Assembly (NCBI RefSeq): GCF_017592825.1
Contig: NZ_JAGFMD010000007.1
Span: 124,001-188,000, forward strand
From: Roseivirga sp. E12
GTDB taxonomy: Bacteria > Bacteroidota > Bacteroidia > Cytophagales > Cyclobacteriaceae
Reading direction: 5' to 3'
Length of the DNA: 64,000 bases
Positions 3,672 to 49,456 of this stretch are shown piece by piece. A program made the translations under genes and the position numbers. Each line of letters starts with the position of its first letter. Position 1 is the stretch's first letter. A model generated the notes under the pieces. It searched no databases and was not told where the DNA came from. It was given only the letters and a program-made list of their open reading frames with translations.

Positions 3672-3702
3672 TAAAAACTGCCCACTCCTTGCGAGTGGAC
3701 AG
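3672..3702 (-). terminator. intrinsic terminator of the coiled-coil gene
   Basis: Read on the minus strand, CTGTCCACTC, loop GCAAG and GAGTGGGCAG make a 10-base-pair stem with one G-U pair, followed directly by TTTTTA. It sits just past the stop of the gene at 3743-4666. Confidence 0.8.
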
Positions 3703-3742
3703 CCCAAAACAACACCAATCAATAATTTTGTCAAATGATGTA

Positions 3743-4666
3743 TTAGCGAGCAGCTCGGCTGTTCTTGGAAATCACCAGGTATTTAGAGATTTGCCAGAAT
3801 GATTCTGGATCTGTGATTTCGAGGATCTTTGTACTCTCATTTTCTCCCGGAAGGATTTGATATGATCCACTAGGGTGATTGCTGACCAAAGAGAGCGTGC
3901 TAGCCTGAATCTTGAGTTGGCTGACTCTGCGCCTGTCAAGCTCCATGAACTGCGTTTTATCGGCATCATCTTGAAGAGCAACGCTGCGACCTATGAACCC
4001 GAGGAATCCACCTTCCTTGTCTACTACTCCTTTGGCCTGTAAGTCTTCGAAGGTACCAACGGCCAAGTAGCTTTTGTTCAACTCATCATTAAGCGCGGTG
4101 AGCTGTGTTACTTCAAGCTCTTTTTCACCGATTATTTCCACTTTGGCATTGAGCGTAGTGTTCAATGAATCTTTTTGGCTGGCTAATAATGCCAGAGCCT
4201 CGTCTTTGTTAACCAATTCAGTTTTGAGATTACCAATAATGGTTTGTCTATCACTTAAGTCGGCTTGAAGTGCGTTGATTCTTTTTTGGAATACACCCAG
4301 TTTTAAGTCTGTACTTTTAACCTTATCAGAGAGAGTTTTGATATTCTCATTCGATCGTAAAATCAAGTCATCAATCATGGCGATTTCTCTCATGATGTTT
4401 TCTTTCTTTCCACTATTCAGTGGCTCTTGACTCTGTCCGTGGACTAGGTTTTCTTTTTCGACAATGGTCCCGATTTGGTCTTCGACTTCTGTGATAAGCC
4501 CCATGACTTCTTCAAATGCTGACTCCTTGCGAATGACTTCTTTTTCCAGCTTCGCAAACTGACCTTCCAGCACCTCTTTTTCTTTGTTGGTGGAGGAAAT
4601 TCCGAACCACATGGCGATAGTTAATGCTCCGAGCAATACCATGCTCACTTTTAATGTTTGTTTCAT
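3743..4666 (-). CDS. membrane-anchored coiled-coil protein, conserved hypothetical
   Basis: The 307-residue protein starts with a hydrophobic segment (about residues 5-24) that acts as an anchor or signal. Residues 28-195 form a long, heptad-like coiled coil rich in Glu, Lys and Leu. A compact C-terminal region of about 105 residues follows, starting near YLAVGTFEDLQAKG and containing GGFLGFIGR, ELDRRR and VSNHPSGSY. A similar coiled-coil plus tail layout occurs in Bacteroidota proteins annotated as Cbp1-type adhesins; that resemblance is recalled and not tested. It is probably periplasmic, and its function is unknown. It is monocistronic: a terminator follows and 275 bases without a gene precede it. 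Confidence 0.78.
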   Translation of the reverse strand: MKQTLKVSMVLLGALTIAMWFGISSTNKEKEVLEGQFAKLEKEVIRKESAFEEVMGLITEVEDQIGTIVEKENLVHGQSQEPLNSGKKENIMREIAMIDDLILRSNENIKTLSDKVKSTDLKLGVFQKRINALQADLSDRQTIIGNLKTELVNKDEALALLASQKDSLNTTLNAKVEIIGEKELEVTQLTALNDELNKSYLAVGTFEDLQAKGVVDKEGGFLGFIGRSVALQDDADKTQFMELDRRRVSQLKIQASTLSLVSNHPSGSYQILPGENESTKILEITDPESFWQISKYLVISKNSRAAR

Positions 4667-20885: not shown

Positions 20886-21722
20886 ATGAAAAGCGGCTTT
20901 CCATATCTCGTTCTTGTTCTGTTACTCTTTCTCTTACCAGGGTGTAAATCAGCAACCGATGTACAAGTACCGGAGGGTATGGTGTATGTGCCCAAAGGTG
21001 CTGAGGTGAATGCGTATTTCATGGATGAAACTCCCGTCACCGTAGCGCAATTTAGAGCTTTTGTACAGGCAACTGACTATGCGACTGAAGCGGAGATGTT
21101 CGGAAACGCAGGAGTATTTACTGTAGAAGCGAATTGGTTTTTAAAAGAAGGAGCCTATTGGGAGTATCCTATGGGGCCGGACTTTCCAAAAGCCCTAGAC
21201 GATCATCCTGTGACACAAATATCATATAACGATGCGGAGGCCTATGCCCTTTGGGCCGGTAAGCGTCTGCCTTCGGCCGCGGAATGGGAACATGCCGCAA
21301 AGGATGGTGAAGACGTCAATACCATTTACAATTGGGGGAATACCCTTGTCGTAAATGATCAGTATAAGGCAAATGTATGGCAAGGATCCTTCCCCTTTGT
21401 AAACACATTAAAAGATGGTTTTGAGTACACCTCGCCCGTTGGCCTATTTGGTAAAACCAAACTCGGCCTGACCGATATCTCAGGTAATGTTTGGGAATGG
21501 ACCACCGACTGGGATATACCCAAAGGCACCTCTCAAAAAGATTATCAAGTCAATCAGATGAGTCAAAAAGTGCTCAGAGGAGGATCATTTCTCTGTGAAC
21601 CCTCATTTTGCCATGGATACCAAATCACGGGAAAAAGTGAATCCACTCCAGAGACCAGTCTAATGCACACCGGTTTTAGATGTGTAAGAGATATTAAAGA
21701 ATCAGATTACAAAAAACTATAA
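20886..21722 (+). CDS. formylglycine-generating enzyme, predicted lipoprotein
   Basis: The 278-residue protein has a signal peptide and lipobox (LLPGC, Cys19), then a complete SUMF1/FGE fold: YFMDETPVTVAQFRAFV, the WAGKRLPSAAEWEHAA motif, NVWQGSFP, GNVWEWTTDW and a C-terminal RGGSFLCEPSFC. Cys237 and Cys242 match the C-x4-C pair (Cys336/Cys341) that binds copper in human FGE. It would oxidise the sulfatase motif cysteine to formylglycine using oxygen. The signal places it outside the cytoplasm, so sulfatases would be matured after export, as in the eukaryotic ER. It lies between the lactonase and a GH29 gene and abuts the latter. Confidence 0.92.
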   Translation: MKSGFPYLVLVLLLFLLPGCKSATDVQVPEGMVYVPKGAEVNAYFMDETPVTVAQFRAFVQATDYATEAEMFGNAGVFTVEANWFLKEGAYWEYPMGPDFPKALDDHPVTQISYNDAEAYALWAGKRLPSAAEWEHAAKDGEDVNTIYNWGNTLVVNDQYKANVWQGSFPFVNTLKDGFEYTSPVGLFGKTKLGLTDISGNVWEWTTDWDIPKGTSQKDYQVNQMSQKVLRGGSFLCEPSFCHGYQITGKSESTPETSLMHTGFRCVRDIKESDYKKL

Positions 21723-23206: not shown

Positions 23207-24115
23207 ATGACGAAATCCATTTTTTCGAGCCTCTTTATAGTGATTTTACTCCTCGGGTGCACAACCAATGAACAGGAAGAAACCAGAAAAGCGAAGCATG
23301 TAATACTTATAGGATCAGACGGACTAGGTGCATATGCCTTCGATAAAGCTAAGATTCCAAATATTAGAAGAATGATGTCCGAAGGGAGTTATTCACTTCA
23401 GGCCAGAGCCGTGCTGCCGTCCTCCAGTGCCGTGAATTGGGCATCTATGATTATGGGTTCCGGTTCAGAACTGCATGGGTATACCGAATGGGGGAGTAAA
23501 ACGCCCGAATTACCATCCCGAATTGTCGGAGAAGAAGGAATCTATCCGTCTATTTTTAGCCTGATTGATGAGCAATTACCAGAAGAGAAAATGGGTGTCT
23601 CCTATACTTGGGGAGGCATTGGATACCTGTTTGAAAAGCAATTGGTAGACCTCGATTATAATGGAAAGACAGATGAAGAAACGGCTGAAACAGCGATTGA
23701 CTTCTTTGTAGAGAAAAAGCCAGCCCTAACTTTTATTCACTTTGATCAACCAGATGGTGCCGGGCACGGAATTGGACATGACACCCCTGAATATTATGAA
23801 GCAGTAGAAGAAATAGATCGTCTGGTAGGCTTAGTAATGGATGCAGTGGAGAAAGCAGGCATGATGGATGATACCATAATCATTTTAAGCTCCGACCATG
23901 GTGGAGTAGATAAAGGTCATGGAGGAAAGTCACTGCTGGAAGTAGAAATTCCCTGGATAATTTATGGAAAAGCTGTATCAGCAAACGGTGCACTTTCGTC
24001 AAGCATAGTTACCTATGATACGGGATCAACGATTGCATATTTACTTGGTCTTAACCAACCGCAATTCTGGACAGGGAGACCGGTGATGGAAGTCTTTCAA
24101 GGAAATAAAGAATGA
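23207..24115 (+). CDS. alkaline-phosphatase-superfamily phosphodiesterase-like lipoprotein
   Basis: The 302-residue protein has a lipobox (LLLGC, Cys18) and the type I phosphodiesterase/nucleotide pyrophosphatase core: metal site VILIGSDGLGAYAF, a serine-rich nucleophile region PSSSAVNWASMIMG, FIHFDQPDGAGHGIGHD and SSDHGGVDKGHGG. The nucleophile is Ser rather than the sulfatase cysteine, so it does not need formylglycine. It could hydrolyse phosphate esters or diesters, or be a Ser-dependent variant acting on sulfate esters; neither is shown. It overlaps the next sulfatase by an ATGA, so both are made together. Confidence 0.82.
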   Translation: MTKSIFSSLFIVILLLGCTTNEQEETRKAKHVILIGSDGLGAYAFDKAKIPNIRRMMSEGSYSLQARAVLPSSSAVNWASMIMGSGSELHGYTEWGSKTPELPSRIVGEEGIYPSIFSLIDEQLPEEKMGVSYTWGGIGYLFEKQLVDLDYNGKTDEETAETAIDFFVEKKPALTFIHFDQPDGAGHGIGHDTPEYYEAVEEIDRLVGLVMDAVEKAGMMDDTIIILSSDHGGVDKGHGGKSLLEVEIPWIIYGKAVSANGALSSSIVTYDTGSTIAYLLGLNQPQFWTGRPVMEVFQGNKE

Positions 24116-25644
24116 AGAATTTAAAAGGTTTATTGGTGACAGTGTTGCTGCTGCTTTCTGTTGGCTGTCAAAGTATCAAACAGAAAGAAAAACTCAATAT
24201 CATTGTTTTTCTTGTTGATGACATGGGTTGGCAAGATACTTCTGTGCCATTTTGGAACGAACGAACCCCCTATAATAACGTTTATCAAACACCAAATATG
24301 GAGCGTCTGGCTTCGGCAGGAATGAAGTTCACACAAGCCTATGCCTGTGCAGTTTGTTCACCAACTCGCGTGAGCTTAATGACTGGAATGAATGCGGCAC
24401 ATCATCGAGTGACTAATTGGACATTGAGAAAAGACGTGCAGCCAGTGGCTGATGATGATAAACTGGCGCAACCCGATTGGAATGTAAATGGTATGAGTCC
24501 CGATGAAGGTATTCCCAATACCATTTATGCCACCCCATTACCTCAACTACTCAAGGACGCAGGCTACTTCACTATTCATAGCGGAAAAGCGCACTTGGGT
24601 GCTATTGGGACACCAGGGTCAGACCCACTAAACCTCGGATTTGATGTGAATATTGCCGGTCATGCTGCAGGAGCACCAGGTAGTTACTATGGAACAGAGT
24701 CTTTTGGAAATGATGATCCCAATAGAACAACATGGGCCGTGCCAGGTCTTGAGAAGTATCACGGAAAAGACATTTATCTCTCAGAAGCCATTACCCGCGA
24801 AGCAGCCCATGCCATGGATAGTGCTGTAAATAATGACCAGCCATTTTTCCTTTATATGGCGCACTACGCAGTGCATACCCCTATTCAAGGTGATGATAGG
24901 TTTGTTCAGAAATACCTAGATCAAGGGCTTTTGCCTACAGAGGCAAAATATGCATCAATGGTAGAAGGAATGGACAAAAGCTTAGGCGACATCATGGATT
25001 TTTTGATCGAAAAGCAGATTGAAGAAAACACGGTAATTCTCTTTATGTCTGACAATGGTGGGCTGAGTGCCGTTGCACGCGGTGGCGAAAAACACACGCA
25101 CAACAAACCCCTAAGTAGTGGCAAAGGATCAGCCCATGAAGGAGGGATTCGGGAACCAATGATTGTAAAATGGCCAGGGAAAGTAAAACCAAATAGTGTA
25201 ACACATGACTACCTCATTATTGAAGATTTCTTTCCCTCAATATTAGAGATTGCGTCAATAACAGATTACCAAACAGTACAACCCATTGACGGGGTTAGTT
25301 TCGTTCCATTGCTAACACATCAAAATGTATCTTCTTCAAAAGACCGGCCACTTTTTTGGCATTACCCTAATCGTTGGGGGCCATTGGGTCCGGGAATTGG
25401 TGCCAGTAGCACGGTACGTTTAGGCGACTGGAAGCTAATCTATTACCACAGCGATCGAAGTTTTGAACTCTTTAACCTTCGAGATGATATTGGAGAAACT
25501 AGAAACAGAGCATCAGACAGCAGGGAAAAGCTTAAAGAACTTGCCCTCGTCCTGACCAATTACCTAAAACAAGTAAATGCTCAAATGCCATTAGATAAGC
25601 AAACCGGGCAGGTGGTCGAGTACCCTTCAGATCTATTGGACTGA
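24112..25644 (+). CDS. S1 family sulfatase lipoprotein (CSPTR)
   Basis: The 510-residue protein has a lipobox (LSVGC, Cys19) and a type I sulfatase fold. The formylglycine motif is CSPTR with Cys82, followed by VSLMTG. Metal ligands are Asp36/Asp37 in FLVDDMGW and FMSDNGG; SGKAHLG holds the catalytic Lys/His region. It should remove a sulfate ester from a sugar outside the cytoplasm after the cysteine is converted by FGE. The subfamily and sulfate position cannot be named. It overlaps the AP-superfamily gene by four bases and ends the first run of the operon; a 94-base gap follows. Confidence 0.93.
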   Translation: MKNLKGLLVTVLLLLSVGCQSIKQKEKLNIIVFLVDDMGWQDTSVPFWNERTPYNNVYQTPNMERLASAGMKFTQAYACAVCSPTRVSLMTGMNAAHHRVTNWTLRKDVQPVADDDKLAQPDWNVNGMSPDEGIPNTIYATPLPQLLKDAGYFTIHSGKAHLGAIGTPGSDPLNLGFDVNIAGHAAGAPGSYYGTESFGNDDPNRTTWAVPGLEKYHGKDIYLSEAITREAAHAMDSAVNNDQPFFLYMAHYAVHTPIQGDDRFVQKYLDQGLLPTEAKYASMVEGMDKSLGDIMDFLIEKQIEENTVILFMSDNGGLSAVARGGEKHTHNKPLSSGKGSAHEGGIREPMIVKWPGKVKPNSVTHDYLIIEDFFPSILEIASITDYQTVQPIDGVSFVPLLTHQNVSSSKDRPLFWHYPNRWGPLGPGIGASSTVRLGDWKLIYYHSDRSFELFNLRDDIGETRNRASDSREKLKELALVLTNYLKQVNAQMPLDKQTGQVVEYPSDLLD

Positions 25645-26268: not shown

Positions 26269-27636
26269 ATGAAAAGAATAAGCTATGCAATTTTAATTTT
26301 GCTAGTGCTTCAATCCTGTGCTCAGGAGAATGAATCCCAACCCAACATTATCGTAATCTTTGCTGACGATGCAGGCTATGCAGACTTTAGCCTCAATGGT
26401 AACAAACAGATTCAAACACCAAATATTGATGCCATAGCAACCAATGGCGTAAAGTTCATGAATGCTTATGTAAGTGGCCCAGTTTGTAGCCCATCAAGGG
26501 CAGGTTTATTAACTGGAAGGTACCAGCAACGTTTTGGCCATGAGTATAATATTGGAGGAAACTTCACAAATACAGACCCCGATTCCATTGGCTTGGCAGT
26601 TGGCGAAAAAACCATAGCCGATTATTTAAAGAATGATGGCTATCGTACCGCCCTAATTGGAAAATGGCATTTAGGAGAGAAGCCCCAGTTCCATCCAAAT
26701 CAAAGAGGTTTCGATGAGTTCTTTGGAATGCTCAAAGGAAGTAGTGCATATACATCTGGAAAGGCTAAAAATATTGAAAGGAATGGAGTGCCAGTGGAGG
26801 CAATGAGCCTGCCCTATCTAACTGATGCCTTTGGAGACGAGGCGGTGAACTTTATTGAAAGCAAAGGAGAAAAACCATTCTTCCTCTTTTTGTCATTCAA
26901 TGCACCTCACACACCAATGCACGCTAGAGATGATTACTTGGCGGAGGCGCGAGGGCAATTTGAAACGGAATCTCGGGCTATCAATGCTGCTATGACAAGG
27001 TCTTTGGATGAAAATGTTGGTAAAGTAATGCAAGCACTTCGAGAACAAGGCCTAGAAGAAAATACACTTGTCATATTTACAAATGACAACGGTGGAGCAA
27101 TGCCTTATAATGCCTCTGACAACTCTCCTTTTTCTGGCACAAAAGGCACTTTTTTGGAAGGAGGTATTCACATACCCTTTGTGGCACAATGGCCGGGTAA
27201 AATAGAAAAAGGATCGAGCTATAACGCACCCATTATCACATTGGATATTCTGCCCACCGTACTTTCTGCAGCGGGCGGTCAGGTCCCCAATAATTTAGAC
27301 GGGGTAGATTTTATGCCATACCTTGGACAGTCGAGTAATGTGCCTCATGAAGAACTGTTTTGGAGGCTGGGACATCATGGAGCAGTGCGAAAAGGAGACT
27401 GGAAATTAATATGGTTTGATGATATGCCTCCCCGTTTACACAATTTGTCGAGTGATATAGCAGAGCAAATTGACTTAAGTAGGGAAGAACCTGAACTTAC
27501 CCAAGCCATGCTGGAATCATACCATCAATGGGAGTCTGAATTGATCAGGCCTGTTTGGCGAACTGATACCATATGGAAAGCACATTCCAGAAAGCGCTAT
27601 GATCAGTCATTTGTCAACTCTCTTAGTAGAAACTAA
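26269..27636 (+). CDS. S1 family sulfatase lipoprotein (CSPSR)
   Basis: A 455-residue sulfatase with lipobox (VLQSC, Cys17) and the motif CSPSR at Cys73 followed by AGLLTG. Metal-binding Asp residues are in IFADDAGYAD and FTNDNGG, and GKWHLGEK is the catalytic Lys/His strand. The general shape is that of compact S1 arylsulfatase-like enzymes. It should desulfate exported sugars after formylglycine formation. It follows the DUF1761 terminator and therefore probably starts a new transcript; an imperfect AT-rich leader is visible but no clear promoter. Confidence 0.92.
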   Translation: MKRISYAILILLVLQSCAQENESQPNIIVIFADDAGYADFSLNGNKQIQTPNIDAIATNGVKFMNAYVSGPVCSPSRAGLLTGRYQQRFGHEYNIGGNFTNTDPDSIGLAVGEKTIADYLKNDGYRTALIGKWHLGEKPQFHPNQRGFDEFFGMLKGSSAYTSGKAKNIERNGVPVEAMSLPYLTDAFGDEAVNFIESKGEKPFFLFLSFNAPHTPMHARDDYLAEARGQFETESRAINAAMTRSLDENVGKVMQALREQGLEENTLVIFTNDNGGAMPYNASDNSPFSGTKGTFLEGGIHIPFVAQWPGKIEKGSSYNAPIITLDILPTVLSAAGGQVPNNLDGVDFMPYLGQSSNVPHEELFWRLGHHGAVRKGDWKLIWFDDMPPRLHNLSSDIAEQIDLSREEPELTQAMLESYHQWESELIRPVWRTDTIWKAHSRKRYDQSFVNSLSRN

Positions 27637-27696: not shown

Positions 27697-29241
27697 ATGA
27701 AGAGAGTTTCCATTTTCCTATTACTAACATTCATCTTTGTTAGCTGTTCGGACACTGAAAAAACGGCTGAAAAGCCCAATATTATCTATATAATGGCCGA
27801 TGACCTAGGTTATGGTGAACTAGGTATTTACGGACAGACCAAGATTCAAACGCCTAACATAGATGCCCTTGCCAGATCTGGAATGATGTTTACCCAGCAT
27901 TATTCAGGAGCGCCAGTTTGTGCCCCTGCACGCTACATGCTAATGACTGGAAAACACCCTGGTAATGCACACATTAGAGGGAACGATGAATGGGCATCTC
28001 GCGGTGAAGTTTGGAATTACGAGAAAGCAGTTAACGACCCAAACTTGGAAGGGCAACGACCCATTCCAAATGGCACAATGACTGTAGGTAACGTACTACA
28101 AAATGCAGGCTATAAGACAGGTGTTGTTGGTAAATGGGGCCTAGGAGCTCCACTCACTGAAGGAATACCCAATAATAGAGGGTTTGACTTTTTCTATGGG
28201 TACAACTGTCAGCGTCAGGCACATCAATTGTATCCACGGCATCTTTGGAAAAATGAAGAGAAAGTTTGGACCCAAAATGAACTGGTAGCACCAAGACAAA
28301 AGCTAGAAGAAGGTGCTGACCCTATGGACCCAGCCAGTTATGACAAGTTCAATAAGCAACCCGATTACGCACCAGCCCTCATGCAAATAGAAGCCCTCAA
28401 CTTCATAGAAGAAAACCAAAACGATCCATTCTTTCTCTATTACGCCACTCCAATTCCTCATTTACCCATTCAAGTGCCACAAGAATATACCGATCGGTAT
28501 ATAGAGCTCTGGGGCGAAGAAGAACCATATATTGGTAACAGAGGATATTTCCCACATAGATATCCGAAAGCAGCCTATGCCGGCATGATTACCTATTTGG
28601 ACGATCAGGTAGGAGAGCTGATCGCTAAACTCAAAGAACTTGGACTGTATGAGAATACGCTCATCATTTTTACGAGCGATAATGGCCCGACCTATACAGG
28701 CGGGGTGGATGCACCTTACTTTAACAGTGCCGGACCTTTTGAAACGGCCTATGGACGTACTAAAGGGTTTACGTATGAAGGAGGTATTCGCGTACCGATG
28801 ATTGCCGCGTGGCCTGGTAAAATAGAAGCAGGTTCTAAAACAGATCACATCTCAGTTTTCTGGGACTTTATGGCGACTGCTGGCGAAATAGCAAAGACTG
28901 AAATTCCAGACAATACGGATGGAGTCAGCTATTTACCGACTCTACTAAACCAAGGAAAGCAGCAAGACAGGGAATACCTCTATTGGGAATTCCCTGAATA
29001 TCAAGGTCAACAAGCTGTGAGAATGGGCGATTGGAAAGGCATTCGTAAAGAGATTAAGAAAGGCAATATGACCCTAGAGCTCTATAACCTCAAAGACGAT
29101 CCAGCAGAACAAAACGACATTGCCTCGGCTCATCCAGACATCATTAAAAAGATGGAAGATATCATGGTAAAGGAGCACACCTCTGCAACCCTTGATCGAT
29201 TTAAAATGACCCAACTGGGGGATGTAATGACCGGTAATTGA
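27697..29241 (+). CDS. S1 family sulfatase lipoprotein (CAPAR)
   Basis: The 514-residue protein has lipobox (IFVSC, Cys17), an acidic linker SDTEK that may favour surface display, and the motif CAPAR at Cys75 followed by YMLMTG. The GKHPGNAHIRGN loop just after it, MADDLGYGELG, GKWGLG and FTSDNGPTYTG complete the active site. The unusual Gly for His in GKWGLG (most have GKWHLG) may mark a particular S1 subfamily. It is an exported sugar sulfatase; the sulfate position is not known. The sialidase gene begins two bases after its stop codon. Confidence 0.92.
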   Translation: MKRVSIFLLLTFIFVSCSDTEKTAEKPNIIYIMADDLGYGELGIYGQTKIQTPNIDALARSGMMFTQHYSGAPVCAPARYMLMTGKHPGNAHIRGNDEWASRGEVWNYEKAVNDPNLEGQRPIPNGTMTVGNVLQNAGYKTGVVGKWGLGAPLTEGIPNNRGFDFFYGYNCQRQAHQLYPRHLWKNEEKVWTQNELVAPRQKLEEGADPMDPASYDKFNKQPDYAPALMQIEALNFIEENQNDPFFLYYATPIPHLPIQVPQEYTDRYIELWGEEEPYIGNRGYFPHRYPKAAYAGMITYLDDQVGELIAKLKELGLYENTLIIFTSDNGPTYTGGVDAPYFNSAGPFETAYGRTKGFTYEGGIRVPMIAAWPGKIEAGSKTDHISVFWDFMATAGEIAKTEIPDNTDGVSYLPTLLNQGKQQDREYLYWEFPEYQGQQAVRMGDWKGIRKEIKKGNMTLELYNLKDDPAEQNDIASAHPDIIKKMEDIMVKEHTSATLDRFKMTQLGDVMTGN

Positions 29242-38067: not shown

Positions 38068-39230
38068 GCTGGCCGTATAACAGAAATTATCCATCAATGG
38101 ACGACCTCCGAAAAAGGGCAAAGAAGAAGATGCCCGGGTTTGCCTTTGAGTACCTTGATGGTGGCTGCAATGAGGATGTCAACTTACACCGCAATACCTC
38201 AGAAATAAGAGATGTAAGCCTAATTCCACAGTATTTGGCTCCATATAAGAAAAGCAGCCTTAAAACAGAATTATTCGGCCATACCTATGACGCTCCATTT
38301 GGCATTGCCCCTGTAGGTTTGCAAGGCCTCATGTGGCCTAATTCGCCTGAAATTTTAGCAAAAGCTGCATCTGCCCATAACATACCATTTGTTCTAAGTA
38401 CGGTTACCACTAGTAGTATCGAACGCATTTCAGAAATCACAGAAGGTAATGCTTGGTTCCAATTATATCACCCTGCAAAAGAGGAATACAGAGACGATAT
38501 ACTGGCAAGAGCTCAAAGTGCCGGCTGTCAGGTTTTAGTACTGCTTTGTGACGTACCCACTTTCGGCTTTCGCCCACGTGATATAAGGAATGGACTCTCT
38601 ATGCCGCCAAGAATGACTTTGAGAAATGTTGGTCAAGTTCTAACAAGTCCCCATTGGGCATTACAAACGCTCAAACATGGGCAGCCCAATTTTGAAACGC
38701 TTAAGCCTTACATGTCGGAAAAACTAGGGCTGAGTGGTTTGGGAGCCTTTATGGATCAAATGTTCTCTGGACGGCTGGATAAAGATAAAATTGCCCGTAT
38801 TCGCGACCAGTGGAAGGGGAAAATTGTACTGAAAGGAGTGGCGAGTGAAGAAGACACCCAAAAGGCAATCGCTTTAGGACTTGATGGCGTTATCGTCTCG
38901 AATCATGGAGGTAGGCAGCTGGATGCAGGAGAATCGACCATTAAACCATTAAGCAGAATCGCTGCCAAGTATGGCGATCAGATAAAAGTGATGATGGATG
39001 GAGGCATGCGTTCTGGGCCAGATATTGCCAGATCTGTTGCCAGTGGAGCTGCGTTTACATTTATGGGACGGAGCTTTATGTATGGGGTTGGGGCCCTAGG
39101 AAAAAGAGGAGGAGAGCATACCATAGGCCTACTAAAGACACAATTGAAACAAGTGATGGAGCAAGTTTGCTGTGAACGGATTACGGATTTGCCGAATCAT
39201 CTTTATAGAGAAATTGACAATAAGCATTGA
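38064..39230 (+). CDS. lldD: FMN-dependent L-lactate dehydrogenase
   Basis: A 388-residue alpha-hydroxy-acid oxidase family barrel. FAFEYLDGGCNEDVNL, FGIAPVGLQGLMWP, FQLYHPAKEE, VLKGVASEED and VSNHGGRQLD with the active-site His and Arg are all present, as is MMDGGMRSGPDI for FMN phosphate. It oxidises L-lactate to pyruvate at the membrane and passes electrons to quinone. In this locus it deals with the L-lactate released when the diketo acid is split, so fucose ends as two pyruvates. It overlaps the mutarotase by four bases. Confidence 0.92.
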   Translation: MSWPYNRNYPSMDDLRKRAKKKMPGFAFEYLDGGCNEDVNLHRNTSEIRDVSLIPQYLAPYKKSSLKTELFGHTYDAPFGIAPVGLQGLMWPNSPEILAKAASAHNIPFVLSTVTTSSIERISEITEGNAWFQLYHPAKEEYRDDILARAQSAGCQVLVLLCDVPTFGFRPRDIRNGLSMPPRMTLRNVGQVLTSPHWALQTLKHGQPNFETLKPYMSEKLGLSGLGAFMDQMFSGRLDKDKIARIRDQWKGKIVLKGVASEEDTQKAIALGLDGVIVSNHGGRQLDAGESTIKPLSRIAAKYGDQIKVMMDGGMRSGPDIARSVASGAAFTFMGRSFMYGVGALGKRGGEHTIGLLKTQLKQVMEQVCCERITDLPNHLYREIDNKH

Positions 39231-39234
39231 AGGT

Positions 39235-40209
39235 ATGAGCAGTAGAAAAAGAGCCCTTCTTATGATAATATCAATCGCTCTCTCAATGGCTATGAGTTCC
39301 GATCGACCGGAAACACAAAATTTTGTGGCCTATAGTCAGGAAATTCCTGGGTCAGATCTATCATTTGACTTTGTTCCCATTGCGGGAGGTAAGTTCAACA
39401 TGGGAAGCCCTGAATCAGAAGCAGGAAGGAACCCAGATGAGGGGCCTCAACATGAAGTAGTCGTTAGCGATTTCTGGATGAGTACACTCGAAGTTACTTG
39501 GGACCAGTTCGAACTTTTCCTTTACCGTGAAACGGATGGAGAGGTTGTAAAAGAGAATAGAGAACTCACCTTGGAAGTAGATGGCATTGCAGGAGCCACC
39601 ATGCCCTATGTGAATTTCAATAAGCCAGGTTATCCTTTGGTAAACGTAACGCAATATGCGGCCTCAACTTTCTGCAAATGGCTGAGTGCAAAAACAGGTC
39701 ATTTTTATCGCTTGCCCACAGAGGCAGAGTGGGAATATGCCAGTAAGGCTGGAGGGGATGCACCATTCTCATTTGATAAAAAGCATATTGACGACTTTGC
39801 CTGGTATGGTGGAAATAGTAACGGTAAATCGCAAAAAGGAGGTAAGAAGAAAGCAAATGCATGGGGCTTGTATGACATGCATGGAAATGTAGCAGAATGG
39901 GTGTTAGATGCCTATAGCGACATGACCTATGGCCAAAGAGAGATCGTTGAAAATCCGGTTTATACCACTGAAGAACTATATCCACGAGTCGTGCGCGGAG
40001 GATCGTTTAATGACCCACTGAAAAATATAAGAGCAACAGCAAGGCAGTTTTCTGATAAGAGCTGGAAAAAAAGAGATCCCCAAATACCAAAGAGTCTCTG
40101 GTGGCTCACGGATGCATTGCATGTCGGGTTTAGAGTTGTTAGACCTGTACAAGTACCGCCAAAATCTGAATGGGAAAAATACTGGGGTAAACCAATTAGA
40201 GAATATTAA
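39235..40209 (+). CDS. SUMF1/FGE-fold protein lacking the catalytic cysteines
   Basis: The 324-residue protein has a signal-like N-terminus (RALLMIISIALSMAM) and a clear FGE-sulfatase domain: FVPIAGGKFNMGSPESE, VTQYAASTFCKWLS, YRLPTEAEWEYA, HGNVAEWVLDAY and VVRGGSFNDPLKNIR. The two cysteines needed for formylglycine formation are absent (Asn-Asp-Pro and Ile stand there). It is therefore unlikely to oxidise sulfatases and may be a binding or structural relative, like GldK-type proteins. I use the ATG at 39235, five bases after lldD; an upstream ATG at 39172 lies inside lldD and would add a non-signal extension. Its neighbour downstream is the exported oxidoreductase. Confidence 0.88.
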   Translation: MSSRKRALLMIISIALSMAMSSDRPETQNFVAYSQEIPGSDLSFDFVPIAGGKFNMGSPESEAGRNPDEGPQHEVVVSDFWMSTLEVTWDQFELFLYRETDGEVVKENRELTLEVDGIAGATMPYVNFNKPGYPLVNVTQYAASTFCKWLSAKTGHFYRLPTEAEWEYASKAGGDAPFSFDKKHIDDFAWYGGNSNGKSQKGGKKKANAWGLYDMHGNVAEWVLDAYSDMTYGQREIVENPVYTTEELYPRVVRGGSFNDPLKNIRATARQFSDKSWKKRDPQIPKSLWWLTDALHVGFRVVRPVQVPPKSEWEKYWGKPIREY

Positions 40210-41611: not shown

Positions 41612-43231
41612 ATGGTTGCTAGTAGGCGAATATTAAAACGCACATTTATCAATTTGATAGGCTGCATCTTATGTTTGTCCTTATCTAATATTTCGGTCGG
41701 GCAAGAATCCGTGGCCATTATTCCTAAGCCAGTTTTATCGGTTTCGAGTAATGGTCAGTTTGTCCTTTCTGACCGTGCCTCCATTATCCATGATAATCTC
41801 ACAAAGGCCACCGCCAATTTTCTTAAAAAGTCTCTGAAAGAAGATCTGGATATTACTCTATCACTGAGTAAACGGAAGAAAAGCGGGATTCACCTGAGTT
41901 TGAATACTGACCTGGTTGAAGAAGAGGGTTATTTACTCAAAATTACGGATAGAGGGATAGATGTTTCTGCCCGCACGGAGGCAGGGCTTTTTTATGGTGT
42001 TCAATCGCTTAGGCAAATGATCCTTTTTGGTGAAAGAAATGGTAATCAAGTGACCCTAAAAGCTACCACCATAGAAGATTACCCAAGGTTTGGATGGCGT
42101 GCCTTCATGTTGGACGAGTCTAGACATTTTAAGGGAGGGGATCAGGTTAAGAAGCTATTGGATCAAATGGCACTCTTAAAAATGAATGTATTTCATTGGC
42201 ATCTCACTGATGATCAAGGTTGGCGGATTGAGATAAAAAAATACCCCAAACTTACCGAGGTAGGAGCTTTTCGTAGTGATACCCAAGTCGGAGGATGGAA
42301 TAGCGAAAAGCGCTCAAACGAATCACATGGGGGGTTTTATACTCAGAAACAAATCAAAGAAATAGTGGCCTATGCCACCGCGAGACATATTACTGTCATT
42401 CCTGAAATAGAAATGCCAGGGCATGCGAGTGCTGCCATAGCAGCCTACCCTTGGTTAGGTACCTCTGGAGAGTCAATTGATGTACCGGTTGTCTTCGGGA
42501 AGATGCCCGATTCTTATAAAGTGACGGATCAAAGAGTATTGACTTTTTTACACCATGTGCTTGACGAAGTAATGACTCTTTTTCCTTCAGAGATCATTCA
42601 TATAGGCGGTGATGAAGTGAAATATGATCAATGGAAAGAATCTACCGATGTACAAGCTTTCATGAATAAGAATGACTTGAGTAGTCCAGCGGACTTACAA
42701 ATCTATTTCACAAATCAAATCTCTCAATACCTAGATTCAAAGGAAAAGAGAATGATGGGCTGGAATGAGATATTAGGACACAATGTACACGCCTATCAAA
42801 AATCTGAGGATACTGAAGTAAAGGAAGAATTGGCAGTTAGTTCTATTATTCACTTTTGGAAAGGGGAACTTAAACTGGCTAAAACTGCGCTAGAAAAAGG
42901 GTATGACATAGTCAATTCGCTTCATTCAAAAACGTACCTGGACTATGGTTATAAAAACATTTCTGTTCAAGCAGCTTATGAGTTCGACCCCATACCTGAA
43001 GGCCTAGAGACCAAATATCATAGTCAGGTTTTGGGAACGGGAGCACAGATGTGGGGAGAGTGGATTCCTACCGTTGAGCGAATGGATTTTCAAGTTTTCC
43101 CAAGATTGGCAGCCTATGCTGAAGTAGGATGGACGCAATTGAAACAAAAAGATTTCGATCACTTTGATTTCGTTTTGACTAAATTAAAGAACTACTGGAG
43201 CCAAAAAGGAATTGCTTATGGCAAAGAATAA
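41612..43231 (+). CDS. GH20 beta-N-acetylhexosaminidase
   Basis: The 539-residue protein has a signal peptide (cut near SVGQ), a GH20b beta/alpha domain and a TIM barrel from about 160. FGWRAFMLDESRHF, FHWHLTDDQGWRIEI and the catalytic pair Asp334-Glu335 in HIGGDEVKYDQW are intact. It removes terminal beta-linked GlcNAc or GalNAc by substrate-assisted catalysis in the periplasm. It overlaps the following sulfatase by 14 bases, a pairing that fits consecutive removal of a 6-sulfate and the amino sugar. It is the only clear hexosaminidase of the window. Confidence 0.94.
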   Translation: MVASRRILKRTFINLIGCILCLSLSNISVGQESVAIIPKPVLSVSSNGQFVLSDRASIIHDNLTKATANFLKKSLKEDLDITLSLSKRKKSGIHLSLNTDLVEEEGYLLKITDRGIDVSARTEAGLFYGVQSLRQMILFGERNGNQVTLKATTIEDYPRFGWRAFMLDESRHFKGGDQVKKLLDQMALLKMNVFHWHLTDDQGWRIEIKKYPKLTEVGAFRSDTQVGGWNSEKRSNESHGGFYTQKQIKEIVAYATARHITVIPEIEMPGHASAAIAAYPWLGTSGESIDVPVVFGKMPDSYKVTDQRVLTFLHHVLDEVMTLFPSEIIHIGGDEVKYDQWKESTDVQAFMNKNDLSSPADLQIYFTNQISQYLDSKEKRMMGWNEILGHNVHAYQKSEDTEVKEELAVSSIIHFWKGELKLAKTALEKGYDIVNSLHSKTYLDYGYKNISVQAAYEFDPIPEGLETKYHSQVLGTGAQMWGEWIPTVERMDFQVFPRLAAYAEVGWTQLKQKDFDHFDFVLTKLKNYWSQKGIAYGKE

Positions 43232-44804
43232 AATCATAATTAATGCCCTTGTGTTATTGCTTATTATGAACCTGTTCATGATGAGTTGTGCTCAATCGAG
43301 TGAGACTGCAGAAAGGCCTAACATCATTTTTATTATGACCGATGATCATACCATACAGGCAATGAGTGCCTATGGTAGCATCATCAACAAGACCCCAAAC
43401 ATGGATCGGATTGCCAATGCTGGGATTCGGTTTAGCAATGCTTTTGTCACCAATTCGATTTGTGCACCAAGCAGAGCTGTTATTCTCACAGGTAAATACA
43501 GTCACCTCAATGGGGTATTGGACAATGCCCAACGCTTTGACGGCTCACAGCAAACATTCCCCAAATTACTTCAAGGAGCAGGTTATCAAACCGCAATGGT
43601 AGGAAAATGGCATTTGAAGTCAGACCCAACAGGTTTTGATTATTGGAACGTTCTGCCCGGCCAAGGACTTTATTATAACCCAGATTTTATTGAGATGGGC
43701 GAGAGAAAAAATCACGAAGGGTATGTAACAGATTTAACGACTGATTTTGCACTGGATTGGTTGGATCGAAGGGAACAGGAAAAACCGTTCTATTTAATGC
43801 TTCATCACAAGGCACCACATCGTAATTGGATGCCCGGTCCAGACCATTTAGATCTTTATAATGATCAGGAGATACCCATTCCAGATAACTTCTTTGATAA
43901 TTATGAGAACAGAGGTACAGCCGCAAAAACTCAGGAGATGTCCATATCCGAAATCATGTTTCCGGTATATGACCTTAAAATATTGGATGCAACGCCTACA
44001 AATGGTAATGATGAGTTTATGCTGAAGCGATTAGAAAGGATGACACCAGAGCAGCGGGAAAACTTCATAAACGCCTACAAGGATGAAAACGCTGCCTTTC
44101 ACAAGGCCAATCTGCAAGGGGACGAACTGGCGAAGTGGAAATATCAAAGATATATTAAAGACTACTTACGATGTGTTGCTTCCGTGGATGATAATATAGG
44201 ACGAGTCTTGGATTACTTGGAAAAAGAAGGACTGACTGAAAACACGTTGATTGTTTATACTTCAGACCAAGGCTTTTATTTAGGTGAGCACGGATGGTTC
44301 GACAAGCGCTTTATGTACGAAGAGTCTTACAAAACACCAATGGTAGTTAGCTATCCAAAATCTATTAAGAAAGGCCTTACAACTGAGGCGATGACTATGA
44401 ATTTGGATATTGCTCCTACGCTACTTGAATACGCTGGAGTTGATGTTCCTGAAGATATGCAAGGAGCATCTCTTAAGTCCATTATGAACAACAATGGAAA
44501 AGAGCCAAGTGATTGGAGGCAATCTACTTACTATCATTACTTCGAATACCCTGGAGTTCATGCTGTGAAAAGGCATTATGGGGTTCGAACGAAACAGTAC
44601 AAACTAATTCACTTCTATAATGACATAGATGAATGGGAATTGTATGACCTCGAGAAAGATCCCAAAGAGATGAAGAACCTGATTGAAGATGAAACCTATG
44701 CATCAGTTAAAAGCACACTGATGAAAGAACTCAGAGAACTTCAGAAGCAATATGGTGATAGTATTCAAAACCAAAGCTCAGTAGACGTATCAAGAATTCC
44801 TTAG
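43218..44804 (+). CDS. S1 family sulfatase lipoprotein (CAPSR), possible GlcNAc-6-sulfatase type
   Basis: The 528-residue protein has a lipobox (FMMSC, Cys24) and the motif CAPSR at Cys82 followed by AVILTGKYSHLNGV, which resembles the human GNS loop. IMTDDHTIQAMSAYG, GKWHLKSDP, YTSDQGFYLGEHGW and HHKAPHRNW complete the site. The resemblance to N-acetylglucosamine-6-sulfatases and iduronate sulfatases is recalled, not computed. Its coding overlap with GH20 supports action on sulfated HexNAc. The ATG at 43218 is used rather than a TTG at 43212. It ends one base before the next sulfatase start. Confidence 0.92.
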   Translation: MAKNKIIINALVLLLIMNLFMMSCAQSSETAERPNIIFIMTDDHTIQAMSAYGSIINKTPNMDRIANAGIRFSNAFVTNSICAPSRAVILTGKYSHLNGVLDNAQRFDGSQQTFPKLLQGAGYQTAMVGKWHLKSDPTGFDYWNVLPGQGLYYNPDFIEMGERKNHEGYVTDLTTDFALDWLDRREQEKPFYLMLHHKAPHRNWMPGPDHLDLYNDQEIPIPDNFFDNYENRGTAAKTQEMSISEIMFPVYDLKILDATPTNGNDEFMLKRLERMTPEQRENFINAYKDENAAFHKANLQGDELAKWKYQRYIKDYLRCVASVDDNIGRVLDYLEKEGLTENTLIVYTSDQGFYLGEHGWFDKRFMYEESYKTPMVVSYPKSIKKGLTTEAMTMNLDIAPTLLEYAGVDVPEDMQGASLKSIMNNNGKEPSDWRQSTYYHYFEYPGVHAVKRHYGVRTKQYKLIHFYNDIDEWELYDLEKDPKEMKNLIEDETYASVKSTLMKELRELQKQYGDSIQNQSSVDVSRIP

Positions 44805-46637
44805 ATGCGAAAAACCAGGTTCATATCGTTAGTTTGTCTTTGCCTCACATTTCAGTTGGTAAGAGCCCAACAGAAACCGAATGTTATCATCATTCTAACC
44901 GATGACCAAGGTTCAATCGATTTGAACAGCTACGGCTCTAAAGACCTGTATACCCCCAATATTGATGAATTGGCCAGTAAAGGGGTGAAGTTCACTCAGT
45001 TTTATGCCGCAGCACCACTTTGTTCTCCTTCTAGAGCATCTATGCTTACCGGCTTAAACCCTCATGCCGCTGGTTTACCGGGTAATGCATCTTCCATGAG
45101 AGGAACTCGCGGTATGCCAACCGAGAAGTTCACTATTGCAGAAGCAATGAAAGAAGTTGGTTATACAACCGGACATATAGGGAAATGGCATTTGGGCTTT
45201 ACTCCTGAAACCATGCCAAATGGTCAAGGTTTCGACTATTCATTTGGCCATATGGGTGGCTGTATCGACAATTACTCACATTTCTTTTACTGGAACGGAC
45301 CAAATCGCCATGACCTCTTTGAAAATGGTCAAGAAGTATGGGAGGACGGGCACTACTTTCCTGACCTAATGACGGAGAAAGCTGATGAGTTTATAGCCCA
45401 AAATCAAGACACACCCTTTTTTTTATACTATGCTATAAACCTTCCTCATTATCCATTGCAACCAACTGCCAAATGGAGAGAGTACTATGCTGATTTATCT
45501 AAGCCAAGAAAGGACTATGCTGCCTTTGTTTCAACTATAGATGAGCGCGTAGGGCACTTAATGAATACACTTGACTCACTGAATTTGAGAGAGAACACTA
45601 TCATAGTTTTCCAATCCGATCATGGGCATTCGGTAGAAGATAGAGCCTTCCGGGGTGGAGGAAATTCTGGGCCATATCGAGGAGCCAAGATGTCACTTTT
45701 TGAGGGAGGAATTAGAGTTCCTGCCATTATTAGTTATCCAAAACAAATCCCAGTAAATGAGGAACGAAACCAAGTGGCACTCAACATAGATTGGTTCCCA
45801 ACCATCATGGATTATGTGGGAGAAGAATCTAAAAATCTAGAAGGGAAAAGTCTGAGGCCTTTAATTGAAAATCCATCTATTGAAACGGAACATCAAGTAT
45901 TCAGGTGGAAACAGGGTGTAAGTTGGGCCGTTAGGAAAGGAGATTGGAAACTCATTGGCTTTCCTCAAGACCCTACCAAAAAAGCAGTATTAGATCCCGA
46001 AAATGATGTGCTCTTTCTAAGTAACCTTGCGGAGGATGTAAGAGAAGTCGAAAACCTAGCGAGTCAGTACCCGGAAAAAGTAAAGGAGTTACTTGGAGAG
46101 TATATGAAATGGGAATTTGCCAGTACAGAAGACATTCCTAAAGAGAGGGAATGGTTAGCCTCGATCGCTAGATCTGCTGAATTAAGCCTAGCAGAAAAAC
46201 CCAGTAACAAATATCCAGCACAGGGCGCAAAGAGCCTGCATGATGAGAAACTTGGAAGCCGTCAATTCAATGATGGATTTTGGATGGGTTTCGAAGAGGA
46301 CAATCTAACTGCAACCATCGACTTGGGTGAGGTACAACAGATAGAACGGGTAGTAATAGGAACTTTGCAGGATGCGGCATCATGGATATTCTTTCCTGAA
46401 TATGTTGAAGTGTCATGGTCCGTTGATGGCAAGAACTATTCTCAACCCAAAAGAATCGAAGTAGGCGCTTTGAAAGATGCTGGGAGAAAACTAATTAAAC
46501 GAATAAGTGTGGAGCAGGAAAATGTTCATAGCAGATTCATTAAAGTATTGGTAAAGAATACTGGAAAATGCCCCACATGGCACATGGGAGCTGGTCAAAA
46601 AGCCTGGCTCTTTGTAGATGAAATTACAGTTCAATAA
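44805..46637 (+). CDS. S1 family sulfatase with C-terminal F5/8-like binding domain (CSPSR)
   Basis: At 610 residues this is the longest sulfatase here. It has a Sec signal (cut near VRAQ), CSPSR at Cys73 followed by ASMLTG, ILTDDQGSIDLNSYG, GKWHLGF and FQSDHGHS. Residues about 465-610 form a discoidin-like domain (from KPSNKYPAQGAKSLHDE to LFVDEITV) that is also present, clearly related, in the next gene. The domain probably holds both enzymes to the same glycan. It starts directly after the previous sulfatase's stop codon and precedes the esterase by 12 bases. Confidence 0.92.
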   Translation: MRKTRFISLVCLCLTFQLVRAQQKPNVIIILTDDQGSIDLNSYGSKDLYTPNIDELASKGVKFTQFYAAAPLCSPSRASMLTGLNPHAAGLPGNASSMRGTRGMPTEKFTIAEAMKEVGYTTGHIGKWHLGFTPETMPNGQGFDYSFGHMGGCIDNYSHFFYWNGPNRHDLFENGQEVWEDGHYFPDLMTEKADEFIAQNQDTPFFLYYAINLPHYPLQPTAKWREYYADLSKPRKDYAAFVSTIDERVGHLMNTLDSLNLRENTIIVFQSDHGHSVEDRAFRGGGNSGPYRGAKMSLFEGGIRVPAIISYPKQIPVNEERNQVALNIDWFPTIMDYVGEESKNLEGKSLRPLIENPSIETEHQVFRWKQGVSWAVRKGDWKLIGFPQDPTKKAVLDPENDVLFLSNLAEDVREVENLASQYPEKVKELLGEYMKWEFASTEDIPKEREWLASIARSAELSLAEKPSNKYPAQGAKSLHDEKLGSRQFNDGFWMGFEEDNLTATIDLGEVQQIERVVIGTLQDAASWIFFPEYVEVSWSVDGKNYSQPKRIEVGALKDAGRKLIKRISVEQENVHSRFIKVLVKNTGKCPTWHMGAGQKAWLFVDEITVQ

Positions 46638-48046: not shown

Positions 48047-49456
48047 ATGAAAAACTTCTTTGTCCTTTGCCTAGCCCTTATTTCTATTCTTACACAATCA
48101 TCTAACGCTCAAGAATGGGAAGGCTCAAGACCCAACATTGTCTTTATTCTAGCCGATGATATGGGGTGGAAAGATCCGGGGTTTATGGGCAATACATATC
48201 ATGAAACACCCAACCTCGATAGGTTGTCTAAGATGGGAACGATGTTTACCAATGCTTATGCAAACGCTCCGAACTGTGCCCCCACTCGAGCGAGTCTAAT
48301 GACGGGCCAGTACACGCCTAGACATGGCATTTTCACGGTAGCGACAGCTGAAAGAGGAAAAAGTGAAAACAGGAAATTAATACCTCCCATCAACAAGCAC
48401 GTTTTAGCTCCGGCCTTTGTCACTTTCCCTGAATTGCTACAAAAAGAAGGCTATGCTACTGCTAGTATGGGTAAATGGCACCTTGGAGGCAGTCCAAGAA
48501 CCAACCCTTTAGCCCAGGGGTTTGATGTCAATATCGGTGGAGATCAAAGAGGCAGTCCAAGAAGCTATTTTAGCCCATATAAGAATGAACAACTACCCGA
48601 TGGGCCGGAGGGAGAATACCTCACTGATAGACTAACCGATGAGGCATTGTCTTTCATTGATGACAATAAAGAAAAACCATTTTTTCTTTACCTCACCCAC
48701 TTCGCGGTGCATACCCCCCTTCAAGGAAAAAAGGAGTTGGTTGATAAGTATGACAAAAAACCTCGGCCAGACGGCATTCATAACCCTAAATATGGAGCCA
48801 TGGTCGAAAGCCTAGATGAAAGTGTCGGAAGGGTAATGGATAAGCTCTCAGAACTTGGGCTGGAGGAAAATACCATAGTAGTTTTCTTTTCCGATAATGG
48901 TCCATACTTCCGCGCTTCTGAAGCGACACCATTAAGAGGCTCAAAGGGCATGCTGTACGAAGGAGGGATCCGAGAACCATTAGTAATCTACTGGAAAGGG
49001 CATACAACTGCGGGTAAGGTGATTGACGAACCAGTTATTGGTACGGACTTTTATCCTACATTTTTAGATTTGGCTGGTATAAAGAAAGACAAGCAACTTA
49101 CCCTCGATGGAGAAAGTCTTTTACCCCTTTTGGAAGCCGGCAAAAGCCTTGAAAGAGAAGCTTTATACTGGCACTTCCCGGCCTACCTAGAGCCCTACGG
49201 TGGAATGAAGGAAAAGTGGAGACAAGTTCCGGCTTCGGCCATTCGTATGGGTGATTGGAAGTTGATTGAAAATTTCGAAACGGGAGCACTTGCCTTATAC
49301 AACCTTAAAACAGACATGAGTGAGTCAATCAATCTGGCCGAAAGAGAACCAGAGAAAAGGGAAGAGCTTTTTAAGGCATTGACCAAATGGAGATTGGAAG
49401 TGAATGCGCCAATACCAGTTGAACTGAACCCGGAATACAAAGAATCTAACAAATGA
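48047..49456 (+). CDS. S1 family sulfatase, secreted (CAPTR)
   Basis: The 469-residue protein has a Sec signal (cut near SSNAQ) and no lipobox. The motif is CAPTR at Cys77 followed by ASLMTGQY. ILADDMGWKDPGFMG, GKWHLGGSP, FFSDNGPYF and HFAVHTPLQG are typical of S1 enzymes acting on sugars. It should desulfate a glycan after formylglycine formation. It begins two bases after the esterase stop and overlaps the next sulfatase by an ATGA, so these sulfatases are translated in series. Confidence 0.93.
   Translation: MKNFFVLCLALISILTQSSNAQEWEGSRPNIVFILADDMGWKDPGFMGNTYHETPNLDRLSKMGTMFTNAYANAPNCAPTRASLMTGQYTPRHGIFTVATAERGKSENRKLIPPINKHVLAPAFVTFPELLQKEGYATASMGKWHLGGSPRTNPLAQGFDVNIGGDQRGSPRSYFSPYKNEQLPDGPEGEYLTDRLTDEALSFIDDNKEKPFFLYLTHFAVHTPLQGKKELVDKYDKKPRPDGIHNPKYGAMVESLDESVGRVMDKLSELGLEENTIVVFFSDNGPYFRASEATPLRGSKGMLYEGGIREPLVIYWKGHTTAGKVIDEPVIGTDFYPTFLDLAGIKKDKQLTLDGESLLPLLEAGKSLEREALYWHFPAYLEPYGGMKEKWRQVPASAIRMGDWKLIENFETGALALYNLKTDMSESINLAEREPEKREELFKALTKWRLEVNAPIPVELNPEYKESNK

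Follow-up and report, generated by a model that had tools for sequence, protein, structure and literature searches.

Where in the cell is the active-site cysteine of a bacterial sulfatase converted to formylglycine? Sulfatases determine which gut and marine bacteria feed on mucins, glycosaminoglycans and algal polysaccharides. The human formylglycine-generating enzyme (FGE, SUMF1) acts in the lumen of the endoplasmic reticulum (ER), on sulfatases that are entering the export route. A second enzyme, anSME (TIGR03942), forms formylglycine on the same motif but is an unrelated radical SAM protein, and it is cytoplasmic and oxygen independent. Prokaryotic FGE is placed in the cytosol in a passage of PMC4505483. 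The stretch of 64,000 nucleotides from Roseivirga sp. E12 that was analyzed here, termed the window, raises the question anew with a gene for an FGE that appears to carry a lipoprotein signal. A first-pass annotation of the window had proposed that this protein matures sulfatases after their export.

The gene occupies positions 20886 to 21722 of the forward strand, begins with ATG, and encodes a predicted lipoprotein of 278 residues whose N-terminus reads MKSGFPYLVLVLLLFLLPGC. Its assignment draws on a PF03781 match (187.9 bits against a cut-off of 23.3, residues 37-268), on PDB matches and on a fold model. The best PDB match is human FGE, followed by the FGEs of S. coelicolor and T. curvata. 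An AlphaFold2 model based on 53 sequences (mean pLDDT 90.9, pTM 0.87) likewise has FGEs as its top fold matches (human, S. coelicolor, T. curvata). The two bacterial enzymes (PDB 2q17, 6muj, 6s07) share their domain, cysteine pair and fold with the window FGE, at 35-37% identity in structural alignments. By sequence score (SUMF1, 185 bits; SUMF2, 134; CalU17, 110; PorK, OvsA, EgtB and PvdO, 47 or fewer) and by fold rank, the window protein is nearer to catalytic FGE than to other FGE-fold proteins. It does not reach the NCBIfam equivalog cut-offs for PorK, GldK or GldJ: its GldK score is 76.4 bits versus a cut-off of 350, and GldJ is not among the matches listed. PvdO of Pseudomonas, a fold match with an FGE-like fold, is periplasmic and carries out a chemistry other than that of FGE; the window FGE scores 45.6 bits with the PvdO model, for which the cut-off is 500. 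Homologues in phage records (19 records) are distant only, all with less than 60% identity.

Alignment with characterized FGEs places the active-site Cys-x4-Cys (GGSFLCEPSFCHGY) at positions 21594 to 21611 of the forward strand. C237 and C242 match up with both catalytic cysteines of human FGE, as the first-pass annotation had claimed, and W203, S234, C237 and C242 are among the invariant positions in an alignment of 37 FGEs. By family, cysteines and fold model, the open reading frame is confirmed as a true-type FGE. The residue that follows the CHGY motif is Q in the window FGE, versus R in most FGEs. An N-terminal hairpin of ~18 residues (GGxxxIGSExGLxxExPxF in kin), which most FGEs keep, is missing, and activity of the window FGE is for this reason not assured. 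The hairpin is altered or shortened also in three of the four nearest family relatives (L205, L206, L207); thus, the change runs in a subclade.

Upstream of the domain, the N-terminus (MKSGFPYLVLVLLLFLLPG, followed by C20) combines a charged n-region, a hydrophobic core and a lipobox, as judged by motif rules and not by a trained signal-peptide predictor. The same rules place a type II signal peptide (residues 1-19) at positions 20886 to 20942 and the codon of the lipobox cysteine (LLPG-C-KSATD) at 20943 to 20945, both on the forward strand, and so uphold the lipobox noted earlier. A like classifier calls an export signal in 53% of 535 ORFs around the FGEs of relatives and a lipobox in 92 of them (17%); 253 (47%) have no export signal under a like rule. 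A lipobox alone is therefore no rarity, and the real evidence is conservation throughout the family. A mis-called start codon for the window FGE was considered and ruled out, because the relatives share the export signal.

An acidic signal just after the lipidated cysteine marks surface lipoproteins of Bacteroidota. Such a signal is absent after C20 of the window FGE (C20-KSATDVQ), so a surface location is less likely than a periplasm-facing one. The earlier proposal of a periplasmic or surface enzyme thus stands in its first half and is weakened in its second. Lipidation, the final membrane and the side on which the protein resides are predicted features.

The occurrence of FGE in the phylum was assessed in a draw of 395 Bacteroidota genomes, with FGE counted at E<=1e-35 and anSME at E<=1e-70. 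FGE is present in 60 of the 395 genomes (Roseivirga sp. E12 included), a lower bound because at least two FGEs (G387, G025) escaped this threshold, and anSME is present in 20. Many Bacteroidota had been said to use radical SAM maturases, but FGE is the commoner enzyme in this draw. The Cys-x4-Cys pair occurs in 57 of the 59 other FGE genomes. Two FGE homologues, L055 and L068, have Cys-x2-Cys instead (GGSFQCEECHGY, GGSFICNECGGY). The N-termini of 55 of the 57 pair-bearing proteins are readable and, when classed from profile-based FGE domain starts, comprise 40 with a strict lipobox, 15 with a signal peptide or anchor, and none that is cytoplasmic. Because the missing hairpin shifts the computed domain start, the window protein was misread by the classifier and was labelled as exported by hand.

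A set of named loci was obtained by an alignment-based scan of the genome collection (a scan with the single protein gave no matches). Among the best 80 matches listed, 75 carry the cysteine pair, 20 of them from Bacteroidota; 19 of these 20 are called exported, and the remaining one is cut at a contig edge with its lipobox visible. Predicted export is the rule among the sampled Bacteroidota. The export signal reported earlier for the window protein is therefore confirmed, but it is no peculiarity of that protein, given that 55 of 55 readable relatives share it; the feature is wider than the first-pass annotation held.

Some homologues depart from this pattern. For the FGE of L109, encoded on a plasmid of Hymenobacter, the annotated frame contains no signal; around positions 3700-4100 of that locus, the gene is annotated from an internal start, and a lipobox-like stretch lies just upstream in another frame. 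Four homologues (L110, L122, L209, L210), two of them on Persicobacter plasmids, lack the cysteine pair, and all but one of them begin with a lipobox-like sequence.

The genome of Roseivirga sp. E12 (4.7 Mb, 99.9% complete) contains eight PF03781 proteins that could be found, and the cysteine pair is present in the window FGE only. Three of the other seven pass the cut-offs for GldK, GldJ and EgtB, whereas three more that were scanned and the seventh, which lies in the window, pass none. This last protein, at positions 39172-40209, scores 114 bits with the PvdO model, for which the cut-off is 500; it is flanked on one side by an FMN-dependent dehydrogenase and on the other by a Gfo/Idh-type oxidoreductase. 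A genome-wide search for anSME, a check that the first-pass annotation had suggested, produced no candidate: the best TIGR03942 score is 20.8 bits, versus a cut-off of 349.45. As judged from these profile searches, the window FGE is the only recognizable sulfatase maturase of the genome.

Ten PF00884 matches are found in the genome. The formylglycine motif is present in eight; all eight motifs have cysteine, and each N-terminus carries an export signal. The window encodes seven of these proteins, in agreement with the earlier description of seven local sulfatases as cysteine-type proteins with export signals; the eighth (L016), outside the window, is also of the cysteine type and has a lipobox-like N-terminus. 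All seven are encoded on the forward strand. A strict lipobox is present in four of them, at 24112-25644 (CSPTR), 27697-29241 (CAPAR), 43212-44804 (CAPSR) and 49453-50796 (CTASR). The sulfatase at 26269-27636 (CSPSR) has a signal peptide with a looser lipobox (LQSC), and those at 44805-46637 (CSPSR) and 48047-49456 (CAPTR) have signal peptides without a lipobox. The two matches without the formylglycine motif are L019 and the product of 23207-24115, a phosphodiesterase/sulfatase-like lipoprotein encoded between a GH29 gene and the first sulfatase.

The surrounding cluster (14031-54842) encodes several GH29 proteins (fucosidases), GH95 and GH20 enzymes, a BNR-repeat protein, an acetylesterase, the sulfatases, sugar-acid-type enzymes and an MFS transporter. 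No SusC or SusD family member is among its scanned proteins. The cluster plausibly serves for the use of sulfated, fucose-rich glycans.

The predicted compartment of FGE was compared with that of neighboring sulfatases. Among readable Cys-type sulfatases, 65 of 67 beside exported FGEs (that of the window included) are exported, versus 6 of 29 beside cytoplasmic FGEs (Fisher p about 1e-14, not corrected for kinship); because FGE location changed only twice, as described below, this correlation is weakly independent. The first group consists of 68 sulfatases at 46 loci, with 54 of the 68 in Bacteroidota, and the second of 30 sulfatases at 26 loci; one row in each is cut at an edge. The loci L064, L106, L109, L161, L168, L172 and L183 were set aside as uncertain; every readable sulfatase next to L064, L106, L109, L168 and L172 (five in all) looks exported. 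At L054 and L196, where a sulfatase near an exported FGE was called cytoplasmic, the N-termini look by eye like signal peptides that start unusually. L179, called cytoplasmic, has a twin-arginine-like N-terminus, and L146 seems to have been called exported in error. Because 6 of 29 sulfatases beside cytoplasmic FGEs are exported, sulfatases could in principle also be matured before they are exported.

The genomes of 11 relatives with FGE, of which G410, G417, G465 and G488 are the closest, contain 100 PF00884 matches at E<=1e-30. At the best 30 of these 100 loci, 29 of 29 readable motif-bearing sulfatases are exported, nine of which also enter the compartment count; one row is cut at an edge, and in five ORFs the rule detects no motif in the stretch that it covers. 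Among these five, L231 is a full-length sulfatase with CAPTR outside that stretch. In 40 further chosen stretches, 36 of 36 motif-bearing sulfatases are exported, one of which also occurs at the 30 loci. Ten ORFs of this set have no motif under the rule and were left unclassed; three of the ten (L252, L256, L266) are full length with a variant motif. Taken together, the single Cys-pair FGE, the failure to find anSME in the genome, the exported Cys-type substrates and the match of compartments support the first-pass proposal that an exported FGE matures sulfatases.

Exported FGEs are present in other phyla as well; thus, export is not unique to Bacteroidota. Among the best 80 named matches listed, exported or anchored FGEs are found in Planctomycetota, Verrucomicrobiota, Acinetobacter, Cyanobacteriota and others, and cytoplasmic ones in Actinomycetota, Bacillota, Chloroflexota, several Proteobacteria and others. 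Of 12 pair-bearing FGEs on plasmids outside Bacteroidota, all are cytoplasmic (11) except one from Azospirillum, which is anchored. All FGEs classed here as cytoplasmic come from outside Bacteroidota and fall into two clades, most of whose members have no export signal.

The history of FGE location was traced on quick trees made without bootstrap. The first holds 147 sequences, of which 144 are labelled, a few of them by hand (the window FGE, L161, L168 and L172 as exported, L181 as cytoplasmic); L109, L183 and L195 are unlabelled. L064, L106 and L199 are excluded from both trees, and the second also excludes L193, L194 and L196, as long or doubtful rows. Location requires two changes on the first tree, whereas 500 shuffles of the labels average 34.5 changes, with none as low. 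The second tree, to which human and T. curvata FGE were added and from which the three doubtful rows were removed (141 labelled), still requires two changes, or three when human FGE is counted as extracytoplasmic and T. curvata FGE as cytoplasmic.

The window FGE falls in a set of 23 rows, 22 of them exported and one unlabelled (SH-aLRT 99). Human FGE, which is the top sequence and fold match of the window FGE and acts outside the cytosol, groups with T. curvata FGE in a set of 28 rows, in which the other 26 are all cytoplasmic (SH-aLRT 98). T. curvata FGE thus belongs to a clade without signal peptides, and the window FGE to another, with a lipobox. S. coelicolor FGE was not placed on the tree; it is close to L117, a member of the clade of T. 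curvata FGE. Because the human and T. curvata enzymes both fall with one of the two cytoplasmic clades, bacterial export and ER location appear to have arisen independently. On these trees, the ER-lumen and bacterial exported topologies look like convergence and not common descent.

The distribution of sulfatases relative to maturases was examined in 60 genomes of the draw. PF00884 at E<=1e-48 is found in 19 of 20 genomes with FGE, 19 of 20 with anSME and, at first, 5 of 20 with neither (taken simply as listed), a contrast that is softer than it appears because motif checks were confined to the group with neither maturase. A sensitive model detects FGE in two of the five PF00884-positive genomes initially assigned to neither group, with the cysteine pair and, by eye, an exported N-terminus; the same model detects no FGE in the 20 anSME genomes. 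The overlap between FGE and anSME in the 395-genome draw is zero, versus about three expected, a difference that is weak alone (Fisher p = 0.054).

In two of the remaining three genomes, the PF00884 matches at the examined loci lack the motif. The third, G088 (estimated 100% complete), encodes four exported Cys-type sulfatases (loci examined: L289, L292, L296, L300, L303). Neither a Cys-pair FGE nor an anSME was found in it, and its FGE-profile matches all lack the cysteine pair. G088 is the one clear exception in this comparison, and therefore another maturation route may exist.

Our preferred reading, to which we assign a probability of about 0.7, is that the window gene encodes a catalytically competent, periplasm-facing FGE lipoprotein that matures Sec-exported sulfatases after their translocation. 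Sec would export FGE, C20 would become lipidated, and the protein would then face the periplasm from a membrane that is probably the outer one. In that position FGE would meet sulfatases as they emerge unfolded from Sec, and would use copper(I) and oxygen to oxidize the cysteine of the C-x-[PA]-x-R motif to formylglycine before the sulfatase folds. The use of copper and oxygen is carried over from characterized FGEs, which a passage of PMC4505483 describes as dependent on both. Catalysis by the window FGE, maturation after export and the timing relative to folding are presumed.

An exported FGE-fold lipoprotein might instead lack formylglycine activity and serve as a binding or docking part. 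PorK/GldK and GldJ, which act in type IX secretion and gliding, are exported lipoproteins of this kind in the same phylum; as described in a passage of PMC12421860, the FGE fold is repurposed in PorK, and these proteins have a structural role. GldK and GldJ exceed their cut-offs in the Roseivirga genome, the window FGE lacks the N-terminal hairpin, and both cysteines are lost in the homologues on Persicobacter plasmids. However, PorK/GldK and GldJ are without active-site cysteines, whereas the window FGE keeps these and other invariant positions, its model folds as FGE with high confidence, and a docking role would leave the eight Cys-type sulfatases of the genome without a recognizable maturase. 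A noncatalytic role is thus unlikely.

If the protein is catalytic, its substrate could still be a different one, with the sulfatases matured by another, undescribed system, as the four exported sulfatases of G088 might suggest. This arrangement seems improbable to us, because the FGE gene is part of the sulfatase cluster in this genome and has sulfatase genes nearby in many relatives, and because PF00884 accompanies FGE or anSME far more often than neither, even with the motif unchecked in the first two groups; among the five apparent exceptions, two proved to bear FGE and two had motif-less matches only. Formylglycine could also be made in the cytoplasm, by FGE before its export or by a shorter product starting at M32, with the lipoprotein form being incidental. 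The cytosol is the site described for prokaryotic FGE (PMC4505483), and exported sulfatases adjoin some cytoplasmic FGEs. Against this, all 55 readable relatives in the phylum keep the export signal; in the two cytoplasmic clades, FGEs mostly lack such a signal; and M32 (PEGMV) is common to most relatives inside the domain and so need not be a start. We consider cytoplasmic maturation very improbable.

The preferred reading, maturation by a periplasm-facing FGE, may extend well beyond this locus. It seems rather probable that extracytoplasmic maturation is usual in FGE-bearing Bacteroidota and widespread in other diderm phyla, and that the cytosolic bacterial FGE of the literature represents two clades, one of which includes the human enzyme. 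Bacteria would then have reached an ER-like arrangement independently, with FGE kept where its sulfatases fold. The exported FGE is conserved and apparently little noticed: the compartment and the clade are new, but the enzyme is known, and no new kind of system is involved. If this is true, oxygen, periplasmic copper and the kinetics of folding after Sec would be controls on the use of sulfated glycans by Bacteroidota, and there may be a simple reason why some species have FGE and others anSME. The common statement on where bacterial FGE works would also need revision, and the ER system would have a bacterial counterpart.

The catalytic FGEs with solved structures met here are those of human, S. 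coelicolor and T. curvata, none of them from an exported bacterial clade. By title or the opening of the abstract, no paper on an exported bacterial FGE was among the matches listed in a literature search whose scope mostly leaves out subscription journals. Passages of PMC6388578, PMC10880615 and PMC9723792 predict sulfatase export and count FGE genes; neither these passages nor those of PMC10154612 and PMC6315715 give the location of FGE. A passage of PMC12452194 describes a protein that joins a bufferin-type peptide, a cytochrome c and an FGE domain.
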